41,411 nucleotides of DNA, taken from contig CAUJHK010000031.1 in NCBI GenBank assembly GCA_963204715.1, positions 1-41,411 on the forward strand, given 5' to 3'. The stretch comes from Pseudomonadota bacterium (GTDB lineage: Bacteria > Pseudomonadota > Alphaproteobacteria > Micavibrionales > Micavibrionaceae). Each line of letters begins with the position of its first letter. Within the stretch, counting starts at the first letter, position 1. Made by a program: the position numbers and the translations under genes. Shown here one piece after another: positions 21,002 to 33,955 of this stretch. The notes under the pieces are model-generated. The model was not told the DNA's origin. It made no database searches and saw only the letters and a program-made list of their open reading frames with translations.

Positions 21002-21898
21002 TTGCCGATGGATGAAAACTTTACCATTCCCTTCCAACTGGAATCCTCCCATGTTCGCGGCAGGATTGTAAGGCTCTCTTCCGCCTTGGATGGGATATTG
21101 TCCGCGCACAACTACCCCGCCAATATTGAGAAGCTGGTGGCTGAGGTTTGTGTTTTGTCCTCACTGCTGTCCTCCATGCTGAAATATGAGGGCATTTTCA
21201 CCCTGCAGGCGCAATCGGAAGGCGCTGTCCGCATGCTTGTGTCTGATGTGACATCGAAGGGGGACTTGCGCGCCTGCGCGACCTTTGATGCTGATGCATT
21301 TTTAGGTGATGACAAAGAAGTTAAGCCCTCGTCCATGGATCAAGGTTATATGGCTTTTACGGTAGACCAAGGAGTGCATACGGAGCGGTATCAGGGTATT
21401 GTTGAACTAAAGCCTGAAGGGCTTGTCGCCAGCGTTCAAAACTATTTTTCCCAGTCAGAACAGATAGCAACAGGGCTTGTTGTGTCTGTGGGGAAGGTTG
21501 ATGGGGCTTGGCGTGGCTGTGCCATTATGGTGCAAAAGATGCCCGATGAAACGCAAGCCTATAACAAAGACACCGTTCCCAGCGATGTGGAAGATGACTG
21601 GCGCCGCGCCATGATATTGCTCAGCAGCGTGAAGGAGGAGGAGATGCTTTCGCCCGATCTGGACGCAAAGGACATTCTCTACAGGCTTTTTCATGAAGAG
21701 GGCGTGCGCGTTTACGACCCCCAGCCATTGCAAAAAAACTGTCGTTGTTCTCAAGACAGGGTTTTGGCCGTGTTGTCTGGTATGTCGAAAGAAGATTTGG
21801 CAGACATGGTCGTTGATGGCAACATCACCATGACATGTGAATTTTGTAGCAAAAATTATATTTTTAACCCAGACAATATTCAAGAAGGAGCGCATTGA
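21002..21898 (+). CDS. hslO: Hsp33 family molecular chaperone
   Basis: C-terminal redox zinc centre CRCSQDRV...CEFC; FTIPFQLESSHVRGRIVRL. Confidence 0.92.
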   Translation: MPMDENFTIPFQLESSHVRGRIVRLSSALDGILSAHNYPANIEKLVAEVCVLSSLLSSMLKYEGIFTLQAQSEGAVRMLVSDVTSKGDLRACATFDADAFLGDDKEVKPSSMDQGYMAFTVDQGVHTERYQGIVELKPEGLVASVQNYFSQSEQIATGLVVSVGKVDGAWRGCAIMVQKMPDETQAYNKDTVPSDVEDDWRRAMILLSSVKEEEMLSPDLDAKDILYRLFHEEGVRVYDPQPLQKNCRCSQDRVLAVLSGMSKEDLADMVVDGNITMTCEFCSKNYIFNPDNIQEGAH

Positions 21899-22473
21899 TG
21901 AAAGCCAAGCTATTACTCTTCGCATCAGTTTTAACATTGGGGGCGTGTGTCGTGGCTCACCCTGAAAGCTCGCCGCAACTAACCTTTGCAAACTACACGC
22001 CGCAAACTTTGAATGTGCAATCATCCAGTGTCGCTGAAAGCTTTCAGGGCAAGGTTGTTCAAGGTGATATATCAGGGCAGTTTGTGATGGCGCCCGATGA
22101 GGCTGTGCAAAAATATGCCGCCAACAGGTTTAAAAGCGCTAACGCGGCGGACGGAAGCTTTGTTCTGGACATTCAGGACAGCTTTGTAACCATGCGGCAG
22201 ATTGAACAGCAGAACAAAGTTCTAGAATGGGCGGATGTGGGCAAGGAAGATGAGTACCGCGTGTTTTTGCAGGTGCAAGTTGTTGCTCAACCATCGGGCT
22301 TTAAGGGTCGTCAGGCTACGACAATCAAATTTGACAGGACTCTGGTTATGCCATCAAGCGTTACTCTGGCAGAACGTGATATGCGCCAGACCAAGTTTTT
22401 GGAAAAGCTTATCTCTGACCTTGATGCCCGCGTGAATGAGGCGTTAGACCAGACACCATCCATCCGCCAATAA
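21895..22473 (+). CDS. Putative lipoprotein of unknown function
   Basis: Signal peptide and lipobox MMKAKLLLFASVLTLGAC; start overlaps hslO stop. Confidence 0.75.
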   Translation: MMKAKLLLFASVLTLGACVVAHPESSPQLTFANYTPQTLNVQSSSVAESFQGKVVQGDISGQFVMAPDEAVQKYAANRFKSANAADGSFVLDIQDSFVTMRQIEQQNKVLEWADVGKEDEYRVFLQVQVVAQPSGFKGRQATTIKFDRTLVMPSSVTLAERDMRQTKFLEKLISDLDARVNEALDQTPSIRQ

Positions 22474-22541: not shown

Positions 22542-23444
22542 TTATTCGAAAGATATTTCCGCACGGCGGTTCGCAGGCTCGCGCACGTTGTCTGGTGTGG
22601 CCACCAGCAACTCGTTCTCGCCACGGCTTTCGACGCGGATAATGTTCGAGGCAACACCACGTGCGGCCAAGGCATCACGCACAGCGTTGGCACGGCGTGA
22701 GGACAGCTTGTCGTTATACTCTTGTGTTCCTGACGTATCTGCGTGTCCGACAACATCAATAGAGCTCAAGTTACGCTTCGCAGCTTCTGTTGCAACAGCA
22801 TCCAGCACGCTCATGGCACCTGGACCAAGGTCGTATTGATCCCAGTCAAAGAAGACGAGATATTTTGCATTTTCAACAGCCATAGGGGCGTTGGGATCAA
22901 CATTATCAAGCGGGTTTGCGCCAGCTACGTTTTCTGGTGCGGCTGGTGGAACATTTGGCATTTGTCCTTCAAGTTGTGACAGAGCTTCCAAAAATTCTTT
23001 CTTGCAGCGGTTGATGTCATCAGGCTGGAAGTTTTCTTCTTGTTGCTCCAGCCAGCAGTCAAAGCGTGCCTGCGCAACGGCAGAAACGTCTGGATAGGCT
23101 TCGCGGGCACCCAGATCAAACATGGAGACAAGCCTGGAACGTCCAAGACTTGTTTCTTCCAGATATTCAGGGGCGATGTTCCAGTCGCTCAAAGGCTCTG
23201 GCATAACAACGTCACCGCGGGCAGAGGCCAAACCTTTACGGGCAAAGTGCAAAGAGTCCGCATGGTCTGTCTGGCCAAGCTCACTATCGACATAGCTTTT
23301 ATATTCAGCTGTCAGTTTTTGTGTGAAGGGGCTTCCTACGGGTTGCACTTCACGCAACGCGTCAACCTCGTCAAATTTATTGAAATCGCAAGCGCCAAGG
23401 GCTGCAACGCCAGCCACTATCATTAATCCGCGCAATATTCGCAT
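22542..23444 (-). CDS. OmpA-family peptidoglycan-associated lipoprotein
   Basis: Lipobox ALGACDF; C-terminal OmpA domain IDVVGHADTSGTQEYNDKLSSRRANAVRDAL. Confidence 0.9.
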   Translation of the reverse strand: MRILRGLMIVAGVAALGACDFNKFDEVDALREVQPVGSPFTQKLTAEYKSYVDSELGQTDHADSLHFARKGLASARGDVVMPEPLSDWNIAPEYLEETSLGRSRLVSMFDLGAREAYPDVSAVAQARFDCWLEQQEENFQPDDINRCKKEFLEALSQLEGQMPNVPPAAPENVAGANPLDNVDPNAPMAVENAKYLVFFDWDQYDLGPGAMSVLDAVATEAAKRNLSSIDVVGHADTSGTQEYNDKLSSRRANAVRDALAARGVASNIIRVESRGENELLVATPDNVREPANRRAEISFE

Positions 23445-25488: not shown

Positions 25489-25539
25489 GTGGACGGTGTA
25501 GTGGTTTCTTACCTCTTGCTTCCTTTTCGGGGGGGCGTT

Positions 25540-27084
25540 ATGGTTTTTGCTCTTCAGATGTTTTTAAATGTAGGTGCCAAAGCCATGTATTTTGACTGCC
25601 CCCCACGAAAAGTAACAAAACTTCTTCTTGCGGCCATGATGAGTGCGGCCTGTGTACTTCCTGCCCACGCGATGGCTCAAAGTAAAGCCGCTCCAGTTTT
25701 TATGCCTTCGCGTGCTTGGGATGTAAGTGCAACTGAACTTGTGAATATCCGTGGTCTTGCAGGCACAAAAATGCCGTGTGTGATGTCGAACGAATTTGAT
25801 AACGGCTTTGTTATGCGTTTGTCAGGCGGGGGGCAAAAGATGCTGGCTATGGCGATAGATTTTCGTCAGGAAGTCTTCGCAAAAGGACATCAGTATAATG
25901 GCATGGTCGCGTTGGGTGACAGCTACATCAAACAGGCGCAAGCCACAGCCTTTACATCATCAACTCTTATTTTCAATCTGCGCAGCATGGCAGATTTTTA
26001 TGCACAAATAGCGCAGCAAAAATCCATGGACATCTCCGTCGATGGAAATGATTTCAGGTTTTCTTTAGAAGGTATAGGCAGCAGTTTTGCCGCGCTTGAA
26101 TCCTGCTATAATGGTGAAAAAACAAAAACCATTGAACCTCTTGTTGCGGACAAAATGGATACAAGGGCTACTTCTGAGTTAGAATCAGGTGGTTTGAAAA
26201 TGCCTCCGTCTCTTGCAAAAACACCACTCCCCAGAAGCTTTGATGAAATTATCGCAGGTTCTGATTCCAGCGCGCCACAAGCAACCCTCAAAAAGGATGA
26301 AAGCCCTTCTGTAGGTTTAAAAACCATGACGCCTTTGCCAGGGGATGTTCCTTCGTCTTCGTCTGCCGCAAAGTCTTACAGGGCGGATATTCCCGCACGA
26401 GTGTCCAGGGAAATAAAAGATGCAAGTACCTCTGAAACCAAAGCGCCTGTTATGAAGGTGGCACCATCAGCCCCAGCAACCACTCCAGACTCAAAAGTCG
26501 TGTCTGCGGCGTCTGTCCCCGAGGTTGCTTCCACGCCAAAATCCGCCCCCATTTCCATGCCAACACCAGCCGCCAAATGGACGGCTTTTGCGGGGGAGAG
26601 CTTGCGCTCTGTCCTTGCCAGATGGTCTGTTGATGCTGGTTATAATCTGGACTGGCAGGCAAACAGTGCAGCAACCATTCCCCAGGATGTCAGTCTGAAC
26701 AGCAGCTTTGAAGAGGCGGTCAATCAGCTTTTGGCAGAAGCAGGCGCTTCGGACGGAATGGCCGCCAGCGTTGAAAATGCATCAGTGCAAAATTCTGATG
26801 TTGCATCAGATAGTGCGACTGTAGGCGCAGCATGGCAGGCTGACAAGGGTGCAAATATTCAAGATGTCATAAATTTATGGGCCGCGCGCGCGGGTGTAAA
26901 AGTGGCATGGTCCTCTTTTACAAGCCTTCCTGTAAAAAGCAGCCAGTCATCACGGGGGAGTTTCGAATCCGCGCTCCAAACGCTGCTTGACCAGTACAAA
27001 GGGGACAAGGTAAGACCCTTTGCGACATTGAACGAGGACCCCGTGTCAGGTGAAAAAACACTCACAATGAACATGGAAAAATAA
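25540..27084 (+). CDS. Exported protein of unknown function with tandem TcpQ/PilL_C-like repeats
   Basis: Signal peptide KLLLAAMMSAACVLPAHAMA; C-terminal repeats WTAFAGESLRSVLARWSVDAGYNLDW and WQADKGANIQDVINLWAARAGVKVAW. Start uncertain (25489/25540/25585). Confidence 0.7.
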   Translation: MVFALQMFLNVGAKAMYFDCPPRKVTKLLLAAMMSAACVLPAHAMAQSKAAPVFMPSRAWDVSATELVNIRGLAGTKMPCVMSNEFDNGFVMRLSGGGQKMLAMAIDFRQEVFAKGHQYNGMVALGDSYIKQAQATAFTSSTLIFNLRSMADFYAQIAQQKSMDISVDGNDFRFSLEGIGSSFAALESCYNGEKTKTIEPLVADKMDTRATSELESGGLKMPPSLAKTPLPRSFDEIIAGSDSSAPQATLKKDESPSVGLKTMTPLPGDVPSSSSAAKSYRADIPARVSREIKDASTSETKAPVMKVAPSAPATTPDSKVVSAASVPEVASTPKSAPISMPTPAAKWTAFAGESLRSVLARWSVDAGYNLDWQANSAATIPQDVSLNSSFEEAVNQLLAEAGASDGMAASVENASVQNSDVASDSATVGAAWQADKGANIQDVINLWAARAGVKVAWSSFTSLPVKSSQSSRGSFESALQTLLDQYKGDKVRPFATLNEDPVSGEKTLTMNMEK

Positions 27085-27260
27085 GGGTAATTCTGGTTTG
27101 TCTATAAGCAAATATGAATATCAGCCCAAAAATTTGATTTGAGCTGATGATATCTCTATATTTCCTTAAAATCCCTCTTTGCGTGAAAACGTGCTCGCGC
27201 TATGGTTTCCACTGGATTCTATATAGATCGGGATTAAACCAACGTTCGGGAAAAAACCGC

Positions 27261-30122
27261 ATGCGCATTCAAAAATTACTTTCTGGCACTTTTTTCGCAG
27301 GTCTGTTTACGGCCTCTTTGCTATTCACCCCAGCCATGGCGGGCGAAACGCTTCCACAGCCGCAGGGCAAATGGGCGCTGACCAAAATTGACCGTGTCGC
27401 GACAAGTGGGAATTCATATTGCACATTGTCCCACGGATATGCCGACAACATTGTTTTAAGCCTTGGCCGCAATCTGGCGGAGGAATATTCCCTGGCGCTG
27501 GACTTCCAAAAGCCTGTGTTTGAAAAAGACAAATCCTTAAAAATCTCCTTGCAACCTGGCCCTGGGCAGACGCGCGCCTATGACCTTATGCCGGCATCCG
27601 AACGCGCGCTGGTGATACGTTTGGGATGGGACAGTGCCTTTTTCAAAACGCTGGATCAAAGCGGTTCTATGAGAATCAGCATTGCGGACAAGTCCTACGC
27701 CTTTAAATTGCCCGACATTGCAAAAGGCCAGAGTGACTTAAAAGACTGTATGGAAGAATTAAAACTCGAGGCTGCAAAAACAAACCCGTCCCAGAATGTT
27801 GCAACAAAGGATGTTTTGCTGGCAGACGCTGGGGCGTCCAACGCCTCTGGCTTTACAGCTGAAAAATCGGAAGAGGCGGCGCCTGCGAAGTCATTCGCAA
27901 AAGTGGCCAAAACAGCCGAAAAAGAAGCTGAAAAAATGGCGGTTGTCGCAAGTGCTCCCGTTGTAAAAGCCGCACAAGAAACGCAGCAAAAGGTACAGCA
28001 AGTGCCAGCCCCGAAAATGCAGCCTGCGGCCATAGACAAGGTTAATCCCGCACTGGCTGCGCAGAATGAACGTCTTGAGAAAGATCTGCAAAAAGCGTTG
28101 GCACAAAGCAAAGCGCTGGAGGAACAATTAGGTTCTGTCCAAAAATCCATGGCGGATACAAAACCCCTGCAGGATAAAATTGCAAAGCTGGAAACGGATA
28201 TAGCCGCGAAAGAAGCGGCAGTTGCTACAACGTCCGCAGATCTGGAGAAGGCAAAAGCTGCCATGGCAGGGGCGGCGACACAATCTGCGGAAAGCGCGGC
28301 TCTGAAAAAACAGAATGATGAGTTGCAGCAAAAGCTTGCGGCCATGGAAAAAGGCACTATTGATGCAAAATCTCTTCAAGAAAAGGTAGTCTCTTTGGAA
28401 AATGATTTGGCCGCAAAAGAGGCCGCCCTGAAAACGGTTTCAGATTCCGCAACAAAAGGGCAGTCTTCAACGCAGGAACTCATGGCGCAAAAAACGGCGG
28501 AACTGGAAGCGGCAAAGACGGAAAAAGAACGCTTGAGCGCAAAGCTGGCCGAGATGGAAAAAGCGGGTGTGGATACAAACGCGCAGGCCGCAAAAATTGC
28601 TGATCTGGAAGCCAAGTTAAAATCCAAAGAAGATGATCTGGCGCAAAAAACGCTTGCAGCAAATTCTGATAAGACAGCGCAGGATATTCTGGCACAAAAG
28701 ACAGCCGAAATTGAAGCCTCAAAAATTGAAGGAAAGGCGCTCAAAGATAAGATAGCCGCGCTGGAATCCCAGCTTGCCACACAAAAAACGGCAGCCGCCA
28801 CCACGCCCGTCACGCCTCTGCCTGGCAGTGATATGGAGATTAAAAAGGCCAATGAAAAGGCGGCTACGTTTGAGGCAAAGGTAAAAGAGCTTGAGGCGAA
28901 AAACGCACAGCTTGAAGATACGGTTCGTCAATCACAAACACGCATTGCCGAAACAGCCGTGAATACAGAAACCAAATCTGTAAAAACCATTGTGGATTTG
29001 CAGTCCAAACTTGAGGCCGCGCAAAAAGACAACATCGCGCTCGCCAAACAGCTTGATAGCGTCAAACTCCAGCAAGAAGACAAACGCCTCAATCTTATTG
29101 CTGGAGACTGGGATCTGGAAAAAGCCACGAAGAGATTCAATGAATCTGAGCGTGAGGTTCAACGCCTTGGATTGCAGCTGGAAAAAGAGCGCACAAGCTG
29201 CAACATGGAAAAAGAGAAGATTGAGGGCATGCTCTTTGATCCTGCTGTGACCGAACAAAAGCAAATCGAAAAACTCACCCAGCTTGAAAAAGAGCTTCAG
29301 GAAGCAAAAGCGGCAAATCCATCTTTTGTAGGCGCTCAGGAACTGGCTTCGCTGAAAAGCACGGTTGAAAACCTGCAAACGGAAAATGCGGACCTAAGGG
29401 CAAAGGCGGGCACTCTTTCCGCGCAGCTGGTGGATACGCAGTCCAACGGTGGTGCGCGTGTGGACCAGGTGGCGTCCACGCAGATAGAAATGCAGGAGTT
29501 GCGTCAACAGCTCGCCTTGAAAGACAAACAGAACGCGACATATCTAAATCAGCTCGCGACACTGCAACAACAACAAAATATGGCGGCCAAAACGGCGGCC
29601 AATATGCAGTTGCAAAAAATAGCCAGCATAAAGCCTGCCGCAGGCGCGCCTGATGAGGTTAAGTCTATGAAGGCTGCTGCGCCAGCGTCCTCGCAAAGTG
29701 ATGTATCTTCCTTGCTAAAACAGGCTGGCTTAAGCCCCGCAGGTTTTAAAAAACTGGGGTCATCTGGTGAGGTTGAGAAGTTTTCCTGGAAAGACGCGCA
29801 GAACTTAAACGGCTCTGCCTCAGTACAGCCCATGAAGGGCAAAGGCTTTGACGCTCTCGTAACTAGTTATATCGGGCAGCAAAAATCCGCTTGTAACGGT
29901 GACTTTGCCTCCATGCCGTCCCCGTCCGCAGGAAGCGCCGCTAAGCAGATGTCGCTTTATGAGGTGGCGTGCGTTGAAGGCGGGCAGAGCAGTTCGGCCT
30001 CGCTTCTCTTCTATGAGAACAAAGGGGACTTTGTGGCCATATCAAACGCAACCGATGCGGCCAATATGGACATGGCCATGGACAGCCGTGACCGTATAGC
30101 GCAGGCCATCCGCGGAATGTAG
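27261..30122 (+). CDS. Exported long coiled-coil protein of unknown function
   Basis: Signal peptide MRIQKLLSGTFFAGLFTASLLFTPAMA; N-terminal domain shared with upstream gene; several hundred residues of K/E/A/Q heptad-like sequence; distinct C-terminal region. Confidence 0.75.
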   Translation: MRIQKLLSGTFFAGLFTASLLFTPAMAGETLPQPQGKWALTKIDRVATSGNSYCTLSHGYADNIVLSLGRNLAEEYSLALDFQKPVFEKDKSLKISLQPGPGQTRAYDLMPASERALVIRLGWDSAFFKTLDQSGSMRISIADKSYAFKLPDIAKGQSDLKDCMEELKLEAAKTNPSQNVATKDVLLADAGASNASGFTAEKSEEAAPAKSFAKVAKTAEKEAEKMAVVASAPVVKAAQETQQKVQQVPAPKMQPAAIDKVNPALAAQNERLEKDLQKALAQSKALEEQLGSVQKSMADTKPLQDKIAKLETDIAAKEAAVATTSADLEKAKAAMAGAATQSAESAALKKQNDELQQKLAAMEKGTIDAKSLQEKVVSLENDLAAKEAALKTVSDSATKGQSSTQELMAQKTAELEAAKTEKERLSAKLAEMEKAGVDTNAQAAKIADLEAKLKSKEDDLAQKTLAANSDKTAQDILAQKTAEIEASKIEGKALKDKIAALESQLATQKTAAATTPVTPLPGSDMEIKKANEKAATFEAKVKELEAKNAQLEDTVRQSQTRIAETAVNTETKSVKTIVDLQSKLEAAQKDNIALAKQLDSVKLQQEDKRLNLIAGDWDLEKATKRFNESEREVQRLGLQLEKERTSCNMEKEKIEGMLFDPAVTEQKQIEKLTQLEKELQEAKAANPSFVGAQELASLKSTVENLQTENADLRAKAGTLSAQLVDTQSNGGARVDQVASTQIEMQELRQQLALKDKQNATYLNQLATLQQQQNMAAKTAANMQLQKIASIKPAAGAPDEVKSMKAAAPASSQSDVSSLLKQAGLSPAGFKKLGSSGEVEKFSWKDAQNLNGSASVQPMKGKGFDALVTSYIGQQKSACNGDFASMPSPSAGSAAKQMSLYEVACVEGGQSSSASLLFYENKGDFVAISNATDAANMDMAMDSRDRIAQAIRGM

Positions 30123-30184: not shown

Positions 30185-30676
30185 TTATTTGCCGTCTTTG
30201 TCACCATCATTGCCAAAGGGGCGGAACATGCGCATGGCGTTTTCGAACATGGCCATGTTTTGCTTGTTAATCTCCTCAAGGTTTGGCACAGGGAAAATGC
30301 CCTCCAGTGATTTGTTGATTTGTGCTCGCATGGCTTCCTGGTTTTTGGCAAAGGTCTGGAGGGTGTGTTCCAGATAGTTTGGGACCAGCGGGCCCAGATT
30401 ATCGCCATAAAATCCTATAAGCTGGCGCAAAAAGCCGATGGGAAGAAGGCTTTGCCCTTCGTTGGATTCCTGGTCGACAATAATTTGGGTCAAAACCGAG
30501 CGTGTCAGGTCTTCGCCTGACTTTGCATCATAAACAACAAAGTCATGGCCTTCTTTGACCATTTCGCACAAATCTTCCAGCGTGACATAACTGCTGCGAC
30601 CTGTGTCATACAAACGTCTGTTAGCATACTTTTTGATGACCGTAGGTTCATCAGACTTCTTCTTGACAGTGGCCAT
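30185..30676 (-). CDS. phaR: Polyhydroxyalkanoate synthesis repressor PhaR
   Basis: IKKYANRRLYDTGRSSYVTLEDLCEMVKEGHDFVVYDAKSGEDLTRSVLTQII; GGAGGA SD upstream of 30676 ATG. Confidence 0.95.
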   Translation of the reverse strand: MATVKKKSDEPTVIKKYANRRLYDTGRSSYVTLEDLCEMVKEGHDFVVYDAKSGEDLTRSVLTQIIVDQESNEGQSLLPIGFLRQLIGFYGDNLGPLVPNYLEHTLQTFAKNQEAMRAQINKSLEGIFPVPNLEEINKQNMAMFENAMRMFRPFGNDGDKDGK

Positions 30677-30822
30677 AGGCACGTCCTCCATTTTAATGCT
30701 GCGAGTGTTATTAACTATTATTATGCACAAAGATATATTGCAAGGCAAAAATATATGCGTGTTGCGTTCTAACTTCTTTTTTGTGCGGTTTTGCCTTATA
30801 TACCATTATAAGGAAAACAATC

Positions 30823-31911
30823 ATGCGCAACGGACCAAAACCCCTTCCTTTTCAACTGGCTATGGCTTCCATGGCGGCGGCAGGCATGGCGGGTGGATCG
30901 GCGTTTGATGCGCAAACCCTCCAGTCGTTTTTTGCGGGCATACAAAAATATCAAAAACATGAGTTTCGGCGTCACATGCCCCCCTTGCCATGCGTCTGGG
31001 AGGAAGGGCAGGCAAAGCTTTATTTTTCAAAGGCCTTGCCCGTCGCACAGACGCACAAAACCCCCGTGGTGCTGGTGCCGTCTATGGTCAATAAGGCTGA
31101 TATTCTGGATTTGCTGCCAAACAGGTCTTTGTTGCGCTGGCTCTCATCGCAAGGGTTTGATGCCTATTTGTTTGACTGGGGGACAACCACGCAAGATGAG
31201 GCCCAAGCAAACATTGACAGTGCGCTTCAAAATCGCCTGCTGCCCGCGCTGGAGTCCATAGGCAAGCCTGTCCTGCTTTTGGGGTATTGCATGGGGGGGC
31301 TTGTTGGCGCGGCGGCGGCCACGCTGCGGCCAGATGCTATAAAAGGTCTGCTCTTGCTCGCCACACCCTGGAACTTTCATGACAAGCTCGGCGCGCTCAA
31401 AGCCAGGATGTCATTGATGAAACCCATGGCCATACCCTATATGACGCAATATCGTCAGCTCCCCGAAAGCTGGATGCAGGCGGTGTTTGCCACGCTGGAC
31501 CCAGAAGGCAGCATCCGCAAATTTTCTTCCTTTGCCAACATGGCGGATGGGGATGAGAGGGAGAAGATTTTTATTGCGGTGGAGGACTGGCTGAATGAGG
31601 GGGTTGATCTGCCCGCTGACATAGCAACACTGTGCATGGAAGAGTGGTATGAGGACAATAAGCCGTTTTTGGGGGCGTGGGAGGTCTGTGGTCGCAATAT
31701 ACGTGCGCAAGATATTCGCTTGCCTACCTTCGTGGTGGCCGCGGCGGCGGATAAAATTGTTCCATCGGAATCAGCGATGGCCTTCGCGCAGCAACGGACA
31801 AAGTGCGACACATTGCTGTGCCAGACAGGGCATGTGGGTTTGATTGCCAGCAAGGATGTTATAAAGCAGGTCTGGCAACCCATGGCTGAATGGTTTGCGG
31901 TGCAGCAATAG
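30823..31911 (+). CDS. PHA synthase (PhaC)-like alpha/beta hydrolase, short form
   Basis: GYCMGG Cys lipase-like box; LFDWG; AAADKIVPSES and TGHVGLI for Asp/His; located between phaR and phaA. Confidence 0.85.
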   Translation: MRNGPKPLPFQLAMASMAAAGMAGGSAFDAQTLQSFFAGIQKYQKHEFRRHMPPLPCVWEEGQAKLYFSKALPVAQTHKTPVVLVPSMVNKADILDLLPNRSLLRWLSSQGFDAYLFDWGTTTQDEAQANIDSALQNRLLPALESIGKPVLLLGYCMGGLVGAAAATLRPDAIKGLLLLATPWNFHDKLGALKARMSLMKPMAIPYMTQYRQLPESWMQAVFATLDPEGSIRKFSSFANMADGDEREKIFIAVEDWLNEGVDLPADIATLCMEEWYEDNKPFLGAWEVCGRNIRAQDIRLPTFVVAAAADKIVPSESAMAFAQQRTKCDTLLCQTGHVGLIASKDVIKQVWQPMAEWFAVQQ

Positions 31912-31999
31912 TTTTTCTTTTTCTTGCGTCTGTAGCCTTGAAATCACAAGAAGCCCGCGTTAGTTTCCGTTCAGTTCCAAAACCCCCCATCACAGGAAT

Positions 32000-33211
32000 A
32001 TGCACATGAACCACGATCCCATTGTTATAGTTTCTGCCAAACGCACAGCCATCGGCGCTTTTGGCGGCGTTTTTTCAAACACGCCCGCCCATGATTTAGG
32101 GGCGAATGTGATAAAGGCCGTGTTGGCTGATGCAGGCGTTGATGCACAAGAGGTCGATGATGTCATTCTGGGGCAGGTCTTGACGGCCACACAAGGTCAA
32201 AACCCAGCACGCCGCGCCGCTATGCTGGCTGGCGTTGCGCAGGAAAAAACCGCCATGACCATCAATCAGGTCTGCGGGTCTGGCCTGCGTGCTGTGGCGC
32301 TGGGCGCACAGGCCATTTTGTGCGGTGATGCAGATGTGGTTGTTGCAGGCGGGCAGGAAAATATGACCCTCTCACCCCACGCCATGGCGCTGCGCGCAGG
32401 CATCAAAATGGGCAATGCGGAATTGATTGACACCATGATATCTGATGGCCTTTGGGATGCGTTCAACAACTACCACATGGGTATGACGGCTGAAAACATT
32501 GCACAAAAATATGGCATTACCCGTGAAGATCAGGATGCGTTTGCTGCTGCGTCCCAGCAAAAGGTTGAGGCGGCTGTAAAGGCTGGCAAGTTTAAGACCG
32601 AGATATCGCCCGTGTCGATTAAGGTCAAAAAAGAAGACGTTATGGTTGATAAGGATGAGTTCCCGCGTGATGGTGTAACCGCTGATGCTTTGGCCAAGTT
32701 GCGCCCTGCGTTTAAGCCAGATGGGTCTGTGACGGCGGGCAATGCATCAGGTATCAATGATGGTGCAGCAGCCGTTCTTTTGATGCGCGAAAGCGCGGCC
32801 AAGGCGCGTGGGCTAAAACCATTTGCGCGGATCAAATCATGGGCAACCGCGGGGGTTGACCCTGCTGTGATGGGGACGGGGCCAATCCCCGCCAGCCGCA
32901 AGGCTTTGGAAAAAGCGGGTTGGAGCGTGTCTGATCTTGACCTTGTTGAATCCAATGAGGCTTTTGCGGCGCAGGCTTGCTGTGTTTTAAAAGAGCTGGG
33001 TCTTGATGCAGCAAAGGTCAACGTGAATGGCGGCGCTATATCTTTGGGCCATCCTATAGGGGCGTCGGGTTGCCGCGTGCTCGTGACACTTCTTCATGAA
33101 ATGGCGCGAGGGGGGGCACAAAAAGGTCTTGTGACCTTGTGCATAGGCGGCGGCATGGGCGTGGCCATGTGCGTGGAGCGTGATGCGTCAATGGAATGGA
33201 AAACGGTATAA
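32000..33211 (+). CDS. phaA: Acetyl-CoA C-acetyltransferase
   Basis: [55 protein letters not shown]. Confidence 0.96.
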
Positions 33212-33226
33212 CAGGGATTTGATGGA

Positions 33227-33955
33227 ATGAAAAAAGGTGTGGCCATAGTAACGGGTGGAACGCGCGGTATAGGGCTTGAAATCACAAGACTGCTTGTGGA
33301 AGAGGGGTATGATGTTGCGGCGGTCTATCATGGCAATGATGAGGCGGCAAAAGATTGCGAACAGCAGACCAACGCGCGCGCCTTTAAGTTTGATGTGGCA
33401 GATTTTGATGCCTGTCAGACAGGTGTAGCCACCATTGAAGAGGAGATGGGAGCTGTCACTGCTCTCGTCAACAACGCAGGTATCACACGCGACGGCGTTT
33501 TGCATAAAATGACAGCAGAGTCATGGCACGCCGTTATCGAAACAAACCTGACATCTTGTTTCAACATGTGCCGCGCTGTGATTGGCGGCATGCGGGAACG
33601 CGGTTTTGGTCGCATCGTCAACATCAGCTCCATCAACGGGCAAAAAGGCCAGTTTGGACAAACAAACTATTCGGCCGCAAAGGCGGGCATGCTTGGCTTT
33701 ACCAAGGCACTGGCATTGGAAAGCGCGGCAAAGGGTGTTACGGTCAACGCAATATGCCCTGGCTACATCGCCACAGACATGACCACGGCCATGAATCAGG
33801 ATGTCTTGGATTCCATCATTCGCCAGATTCCTGTTGCGCGCATGGGCACGCCGCAGGAGATAGCGCAAATCGTTGCATTCTTAATGTCTGAAAAGGCGGG
33901 TTTTATCAATGGCTCCACTATAACAGCCAATGGCGGGCAGTTTATGGCAGCATAA
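33227..33955 (+). CDS. phaB: Acetoacetyl-CoA reductase
   Basis: SDR: VTGGTRGIGLEI; NNAGITRD; NISSINGQKGQFGQTNYSAAKAGMLGFTKALALE. Confidence 0.93.
   Translation: MKKGVAIVTGGTRGIGLEITRLLVEEGYDVAAVYHGNDEAAKDCEQQTNARAFKFDVADFDACQTGVATIEEEMGAVTALVNNAGITRDGVLHKMTAESWHAVIETNLTSCFNMCRAVIGGMRERGFGRIVNISSINGQKGQFGQTNYSAAKAGMLGFTKALALESAAKGVTVNAICPGYIATDMTTAMNQDVLDSIIRQIPVARMGTPQEIAQIVAFLMSEKAGFINGSTITANGGQFMAA

Follow-up and report, generated by a model that had tools for sequence, protein, structure and literature searches.

Two neighbouring genes, designated here A and B, lie on the 41,411-nt contig CAUJHK010000031.1 (assembly GCA_963204715.1; hereafter the window) of a bacterium from the Micavibrionaceae, within Micavibrionales, the order that includes the predator Micavibrio. 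Their products begin with the same domain, hereafter the N-domain, which on the basis of a predicted structure is taken as a separate, undescribed family in the MotY-N/IalB-like fold group; the two copies are, judging from their sequences, ancient paralogues. We propose that A and B form a two-part periplasmic scaffold, a reading to which we assign a probability of about 0.45. The two genes and their N-domains are as follows:

25540–27084, + strand: gene A, with a signal peptide, the MotY-N/IalB-like N-domain, a low-complexity linker and two TcpQ repeats.
27261–30122, + strand: gene B, with a signal peptide, the N-domain, a long coiled coil and a DcrB/PsbP-like C-terminal domain (C-domain).
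25690–26124, + strand: N-domain of A (invariant W at 25717–25719; Cys at 25777–25779 and 26104–26106), from the 62-row alignment described below.
27345–27767, + strand: N-domain of B (invariant W at 27372–27374; Cys at 27420–27422 and 27747–27749).

The open reading frame (ORF) of A spans 25489–27084 and opens at a GTG (25489), with ATG 25540 or ATG 25585 as the likely start, and that of B spans 27147–30122, with ATG 27261 as the likely start. The genes are same-strand neighbours (+), situated in the window downstream of prfB and upstream of a divergent phaR. Both N-termini resemble signal peptides by eye, and both products are probably secreted.

The segments between the two cysteines are 110 aa long in A and in B and share 24 identities, whereas 20,000 shuffled versions of the B segment averaged 6.9 and never exceeded 19; BLASTP aligned the two N-domains without gaps (39.3 bits, E 2e-9). 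This agrees with a preliminary description of this DNA, which had reported a gapless Cys-to-Cys alignment of 110 residues with about 23 identities. Profile hidden Markov models (HMMs) seeded with either A or B reach the same 62 proteins, from 40 regions plus the window, and detect the other partner with E values of about 1e-38 to 1e-41. The two N-termini thus converge on one family, instead of belonging to different ones, which the description had named as the outcome that would speak against it. Only three columns are invariant across the 62-row alignment (W10, C30 and C139). The N-domain of MotY is held by a disulfide between equivalent cysteines, and by analogy each N-domain of A and B may be locked between its two invariant Cys. 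A comparison with Pfam and NCBIfam yielded no matching entry, and at the level of sequence families the designation of the N-domain as undescribed holds. The description, which had failed to recognise the domain, was therefore right as to the family, but the fold itself is a known one, being MotY-N/IalB-like according to Foldseek. It had also proposed a search for further copies; in the window's genome (90.4% complete), tblastn at E ≤ 10 found none beyond A and B.

The fold assignment rests on an AlphaFold model of the N-domain of A, calculated with the 62 alignment rows (predicted local distance difference test, pLDDT, 94.7; predicted template modeling score, pTM, 0.87). The best credible match of this model in the PDB was MotY in the Vibrio LPHT ring (8z5n; Foldseek probability 1.00, E 2.8e-3), and it also matched the crystal structure of MotY (2zf8; probability 0.99) and IalB from Bartonella (3dtd; probability 0.98, template modeling score, TM, 0.53/0.54), the MotY matches having a TM of around 0.5. 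Since none of these matches passes an E value of 1e-3, and their TM is borderline, profile comparisons with hhalign were added. The N-domain profile scored 31.8 against MotY_N (15 sequences) over 126 columns, with W aligned to W and both cysteines to cysteines, and 37.3 against IalB (30 sequences) over the last 66 columns, as compared with 17.5 for the best of 38 unrelated profiles and 11–12 for reversed profiles. The direct comparison of MotY with IalB was weak (21.5), so that the N-domain scores higher to each of them than they do to each other. Conventional family searches were negative: in Pfam, neither A nor B matched PF18393 (MotY_N) at E ≤ 1, and the window's genome contained no match to that entry; PF06776 (IalB) did not match A or B, and a distant member of the N-domain family reached 15.6 bits against a cut-off of 22.1; and a search of PDB sequences with the N-domain profile found nothing. 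Common descent of the N-domain with MotY-N and IalB is likely but not proven, and our literature search found no relevant paper connecting MotY and IalB. The fold of the B copy is assigned through its alignment with A, whose copy is the one that was modelled.

Beyond the N-domain, the two proteins differ, and contain the following features:

26578–26763, + strand: TcpQ repeat 1 of A, with approximate boundaries, placed from the motif WTAFAGESLRSVLARW.
26830–27006, + strand: TcpQ repeat 2 of A, the best PF10671 stretch (residues 448–506).
28050–29636, + strand: coiled-coil region of B, proline-poor and heptad-rich, as estimated by a simple heptad scan.
29106–29300, + strand: conserved coil segment of B, DWxLExATxRFxESEREVxRLG...C..EK..IE.MLFDP, common to B-type proteins and to the A'-type proteins described below.
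29685–30119, + strand: C-domain of B, about 140 aa, whose two invariant Cys are Cys916 and Cys942 of the ORF.

Protein A exceeds the Pfam cut-off for TcpQ (PF10671; 82.8 bits, E 1.9e-23) in two stretches. In B, some 640 residues, mostly proline-poor and heptad-rich, separate the N- and C-domains; matches of this protein to filament, SMC and liprin families were discarded as coiled-coil noise. The C-domain was modelled by AlphaFold with a pLDDT of 94.2, and the model matches, with probability 1.00, DcrB (6e8a; E 1.5e-5), PsbP (E 7.9e-5) and EagT6/SciW. The C-domain profile found nothing credible among PDB sequences (only a stray hit at E 0.057), and the domain had no Pfam match. The protein therefore contains another undescribed domain besides the N-domain, likewise with two conserved Cys, whose predicted fold is DcrB/PsbP/Mog1-like. 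The idea of the preliminary description, a common periplasmic module attached to different effector parts, is borne out by a single N-domain family joined to TcpQ in one protein and to a coil plus C-domain in the other; it had correctly seen the TcpQ-like repeats and the coil, but missed the conserved C-domain of B.

Searches among 58 relatives matched A in 55, part of these to its TcpQ repeats, and the N-terminus of B in 52. Of the Micavibrionales loci that were read, 21 have two N-domain genes side by side; these loci come from families f1, f2, f3, f5 and f7. The pair is usually found beside prfB in f1, f2 and f7 (prfB-phaR neighbourhood) and, as judged by eye, beside ruvABC/yebC-type and tolQR genes in L083 and L098 (f3 and f5). 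The two genes are therefore neighbours within the genus as well as across several families of the order, and the separation in close relatives that the description had considered as a possible refutation is not the case; the co-conservation that it had suggested is nevertheless not strict, because in about eight loci a gene with TcpQ alone stands beside B. Six genomes (L066, L070, L073, L075, L086 and L095) carry an A-type N-domain protein, A', at a second, unlinked locus, and some genomes, such as G003, G008, G009 and G012, have both A' and the TcpQ-only gene beside B. The A' proteins carry the coil segment NWNLExATxRFxEAER...MLFDP, and five of the six A' loci have common neighbours (acyl-CoA dehydrogenase-like, SCO1-like and thiC-like genes, judged by eye). 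In the phylogenetic tree, A' groups with A (24 rows, support 98/93) versus 29 rows of B (support 99/98), and the split between both clades predates the divergence of families f1, f2 and f7. The reverse loss occurs in family f7, where a B-type protein (L082:10680–13514) keeps the C-domain and has no detectable N-domain. In f3 and f5, the second gene of the pair retains both the N- and the C-domain.

Among 381 alphaproteobacterial genomes sampled from outside the order, 34 contain the N-domain. HMM searches confirmed a compact protein containing both the N- and the C-domain (N-C protein) in 11 regions outside Micavibrionales (12 proteins, counting that of L198, whose two domains lie in different reading frames), and the same architecture was seen by eye in two further translations (L116 and L129). 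The remaining N-domains stand by themselves, are followed by unassigned C-terminal parts or are joined to Trypsin_2; the fusions to a trypsin-like protease domain include L120 and L130. The compact N-C protein is the likely parent of A and B. The simplest history would be a duplication of this protein, followed by insertion of a coil between the two domains in B and by exchange of the C-domain for TcpQ repeats in A.

The surroundings of the pair vary. Within the window, the adjoining stretch 30185–33955 contains polyhydroxyalkanoate-type genes (phaR, hydrolase/synthase-like, thiolase and reductase-like) in conserved order. An OmpA-family lipoprotein-like gene (22542–23444, − strand), near the pair but divergent, has been retained close to prfB in 23 of the loci that were read, and a small lipoprotein-like gene (21895–22473), without a family match above the cut-off, is kept in 10. 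About nine Micavibrionales loci (L071, L072, L076, L077, L081, L082, L087, L091 and L096) have a PAS-GGDEF-EAL gene downstream of B, separated from it by another gene in one case. Two further families have a gene of this type after the compact N-C gene (L203:2623–4356 and L204:6465–8156); the window has none. This neighbour hints at a link to cyclic di-GMP. Two genes, one receiver-like and one encoding about 177 aa, converge on the pair in families f3 and f5 (L083:6078–7213, L097:6398–7543 and L098:5918–7009).

In the proposed scaffold, the N-domains would act as docking modules, binding either one another or an envelope partner that both share; the TcpQ repeats would anchor A at the outer membrane or on a ring of the secretin type, and B would be a tether whose coil brings the C-domain to another site of the envelope. 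TcpQ is needed for the stability and the outer-membrane localization of the secretin TcpC (PMC4971541). A and B may physically form a two-component assembly. Two observations weigh against the proposal. In about eight genomes a TcpQ-only gene, lacking the N-domain, occupies the place of A beside B, so that a contact between N-domains cannot be required in all cases; additionally, neither a secretin gene nor a flagellar one was recognised next to the pair in the window. Of the machines that the scaffold may serve, the flagellum seems slightly more likely than a secretin, and it may also serve neither. That it is a novel periplasmic ring or tether, made of two MotY-like paralogues and belonging to the Micavibrionales polar motor or to another envelope machine, appears unlikely; on that reading, the N-domain of MotY would be a gammaproteobacterial branch of a wider module to which IalB also belongs.

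A more specific role, possible but doubtful, is that the pair is the Micavibrionales counterpart of the MotY T-ring/stator scaffold. MotY is a T-ring component required for stator assembly and has a peptidoglycan-binding motif (PMC7990780). It is similarly doubtful that the N-domains would lie around the P-ring, with the TcpQ repeats and the coil replacing the OmpA-like anchor of MotY. The best fold matches of the N-domain are indeed MotY, both in the LPHT ring and in its crystal structure, and hhalign pairs the W and the first and last Cys with those of MotY over the 126 columns; against this, IalB is an equally good fold match and has no known flagellar role, the Pfam MotY_N entry is not matched, and the genes recognised adjoining the pair include no flagellar one. 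FlgI occurs in 54 of the 58 relatives, and the FlgI-negative, pair-bearing genomes G038 and G042 (at least 90% complete) have FlhA-family genes, so that their lack of FlgI was dropped as an argument against a flagellar role. Co-occurrence cannot decide the matter, because every tested pair-bearing genome that is at least 90% complete is flagellated. Outside the order, all 13 genomes with an N-C protein are FlgI-positive, versus a background of 225/385 (58%); counted by family, however, the association is only 5/5, with a probability of about 0.07 by chance, and proteins with the N-domain only are found in genomes without FlgI. The class-wide association between N-C proteins and FlgI is thus suggestive only.

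The two TcpQ repeats of A raise the alternative, in our opinion an unlikely one, that the pair serves a secretin or a type IV pilus-like channel, with A as a TcpQ-type secretin partner and B as a periplasmic tether. TcpQ is reported to act in secretin assembly (PMC4971541), and in the relatives, other TcpQ genes are situated no more than about 2 kb from a secretin gene (genome:contig, G043:C21, G042:C31, G047:C4, G037:C1, G041:C57, G027:C2 and G049:C2). Secretins occur in 58/58 relatives, but precisely because they are universal in the order their co-occurrence with the pair is uninformative; the secretin hits in the window's genome are on contigs C78, C83 and C147, and not at the locus of the pair on C31, and the compact N-C proteins scanned from other orders contain no TcpQ domain. 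Still more improbable is a reading in which the N-domain would be an all-purpose periplasmic module of the IalB type, tied to no particular machine, and A and B would be tandem duplicates that act separately. In other Alphaproteobacteria the N-domain can stand by itself or be joined to a trypsin-like protease, which fits this explanation, as does the relocation of the A-type N-domain away from B in six genomes; but 21 genomes keep the adjacency despite an identity of about 20% and varied neighbourhoods, which is more than decaying tandem duplicates usually show, and TcpQ remains beside B even after the departure of the N-domain.

With the assignment proposed here, an unannotated alphaproteobacterial domain, also found fused to proteases, joins MotY and IalB in one fold group. 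The C-domain of B is defined alongside it as a second unannotated, partner domain, and both point to a conserved, unstudied envelope structure in Micavibrionales.

Among known systems, the N-domain of MotY (PF18393; 2zf8, 8z5n) is resembled by that of A and B in its predicted fold, in the W and the first and last Cys, in its probable export and in being followed by an effector domain. However, A and B lack the C-terminal OmpA-like domain of MotY and have instead TcpQ in A and a coil plus a DcrB-like domain in B. IalB (PF06776; 3dtd), of which a canonical copy is also encoded in the window's genome (G000:C65), shares the predicted fold and the profile match over the last 66 columns, but differs in its Cys pattern, and the IalB copies sampled are mostly single-domain proteins of 160–250 aa. 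The likeness to TcpQ (PF10671) lies in the two repeats of A, which differ in being fused to a new N-domain and in having no secretin gene recognised at the locus. Likewise, DcrB, PsbP and EagT6/SciW (Mog1/PsbP-like fold) share the predicted fold of the C-domain of B, which differs from them in its two invariant Cys, in its position after a long coil and in matching no Pfam family.

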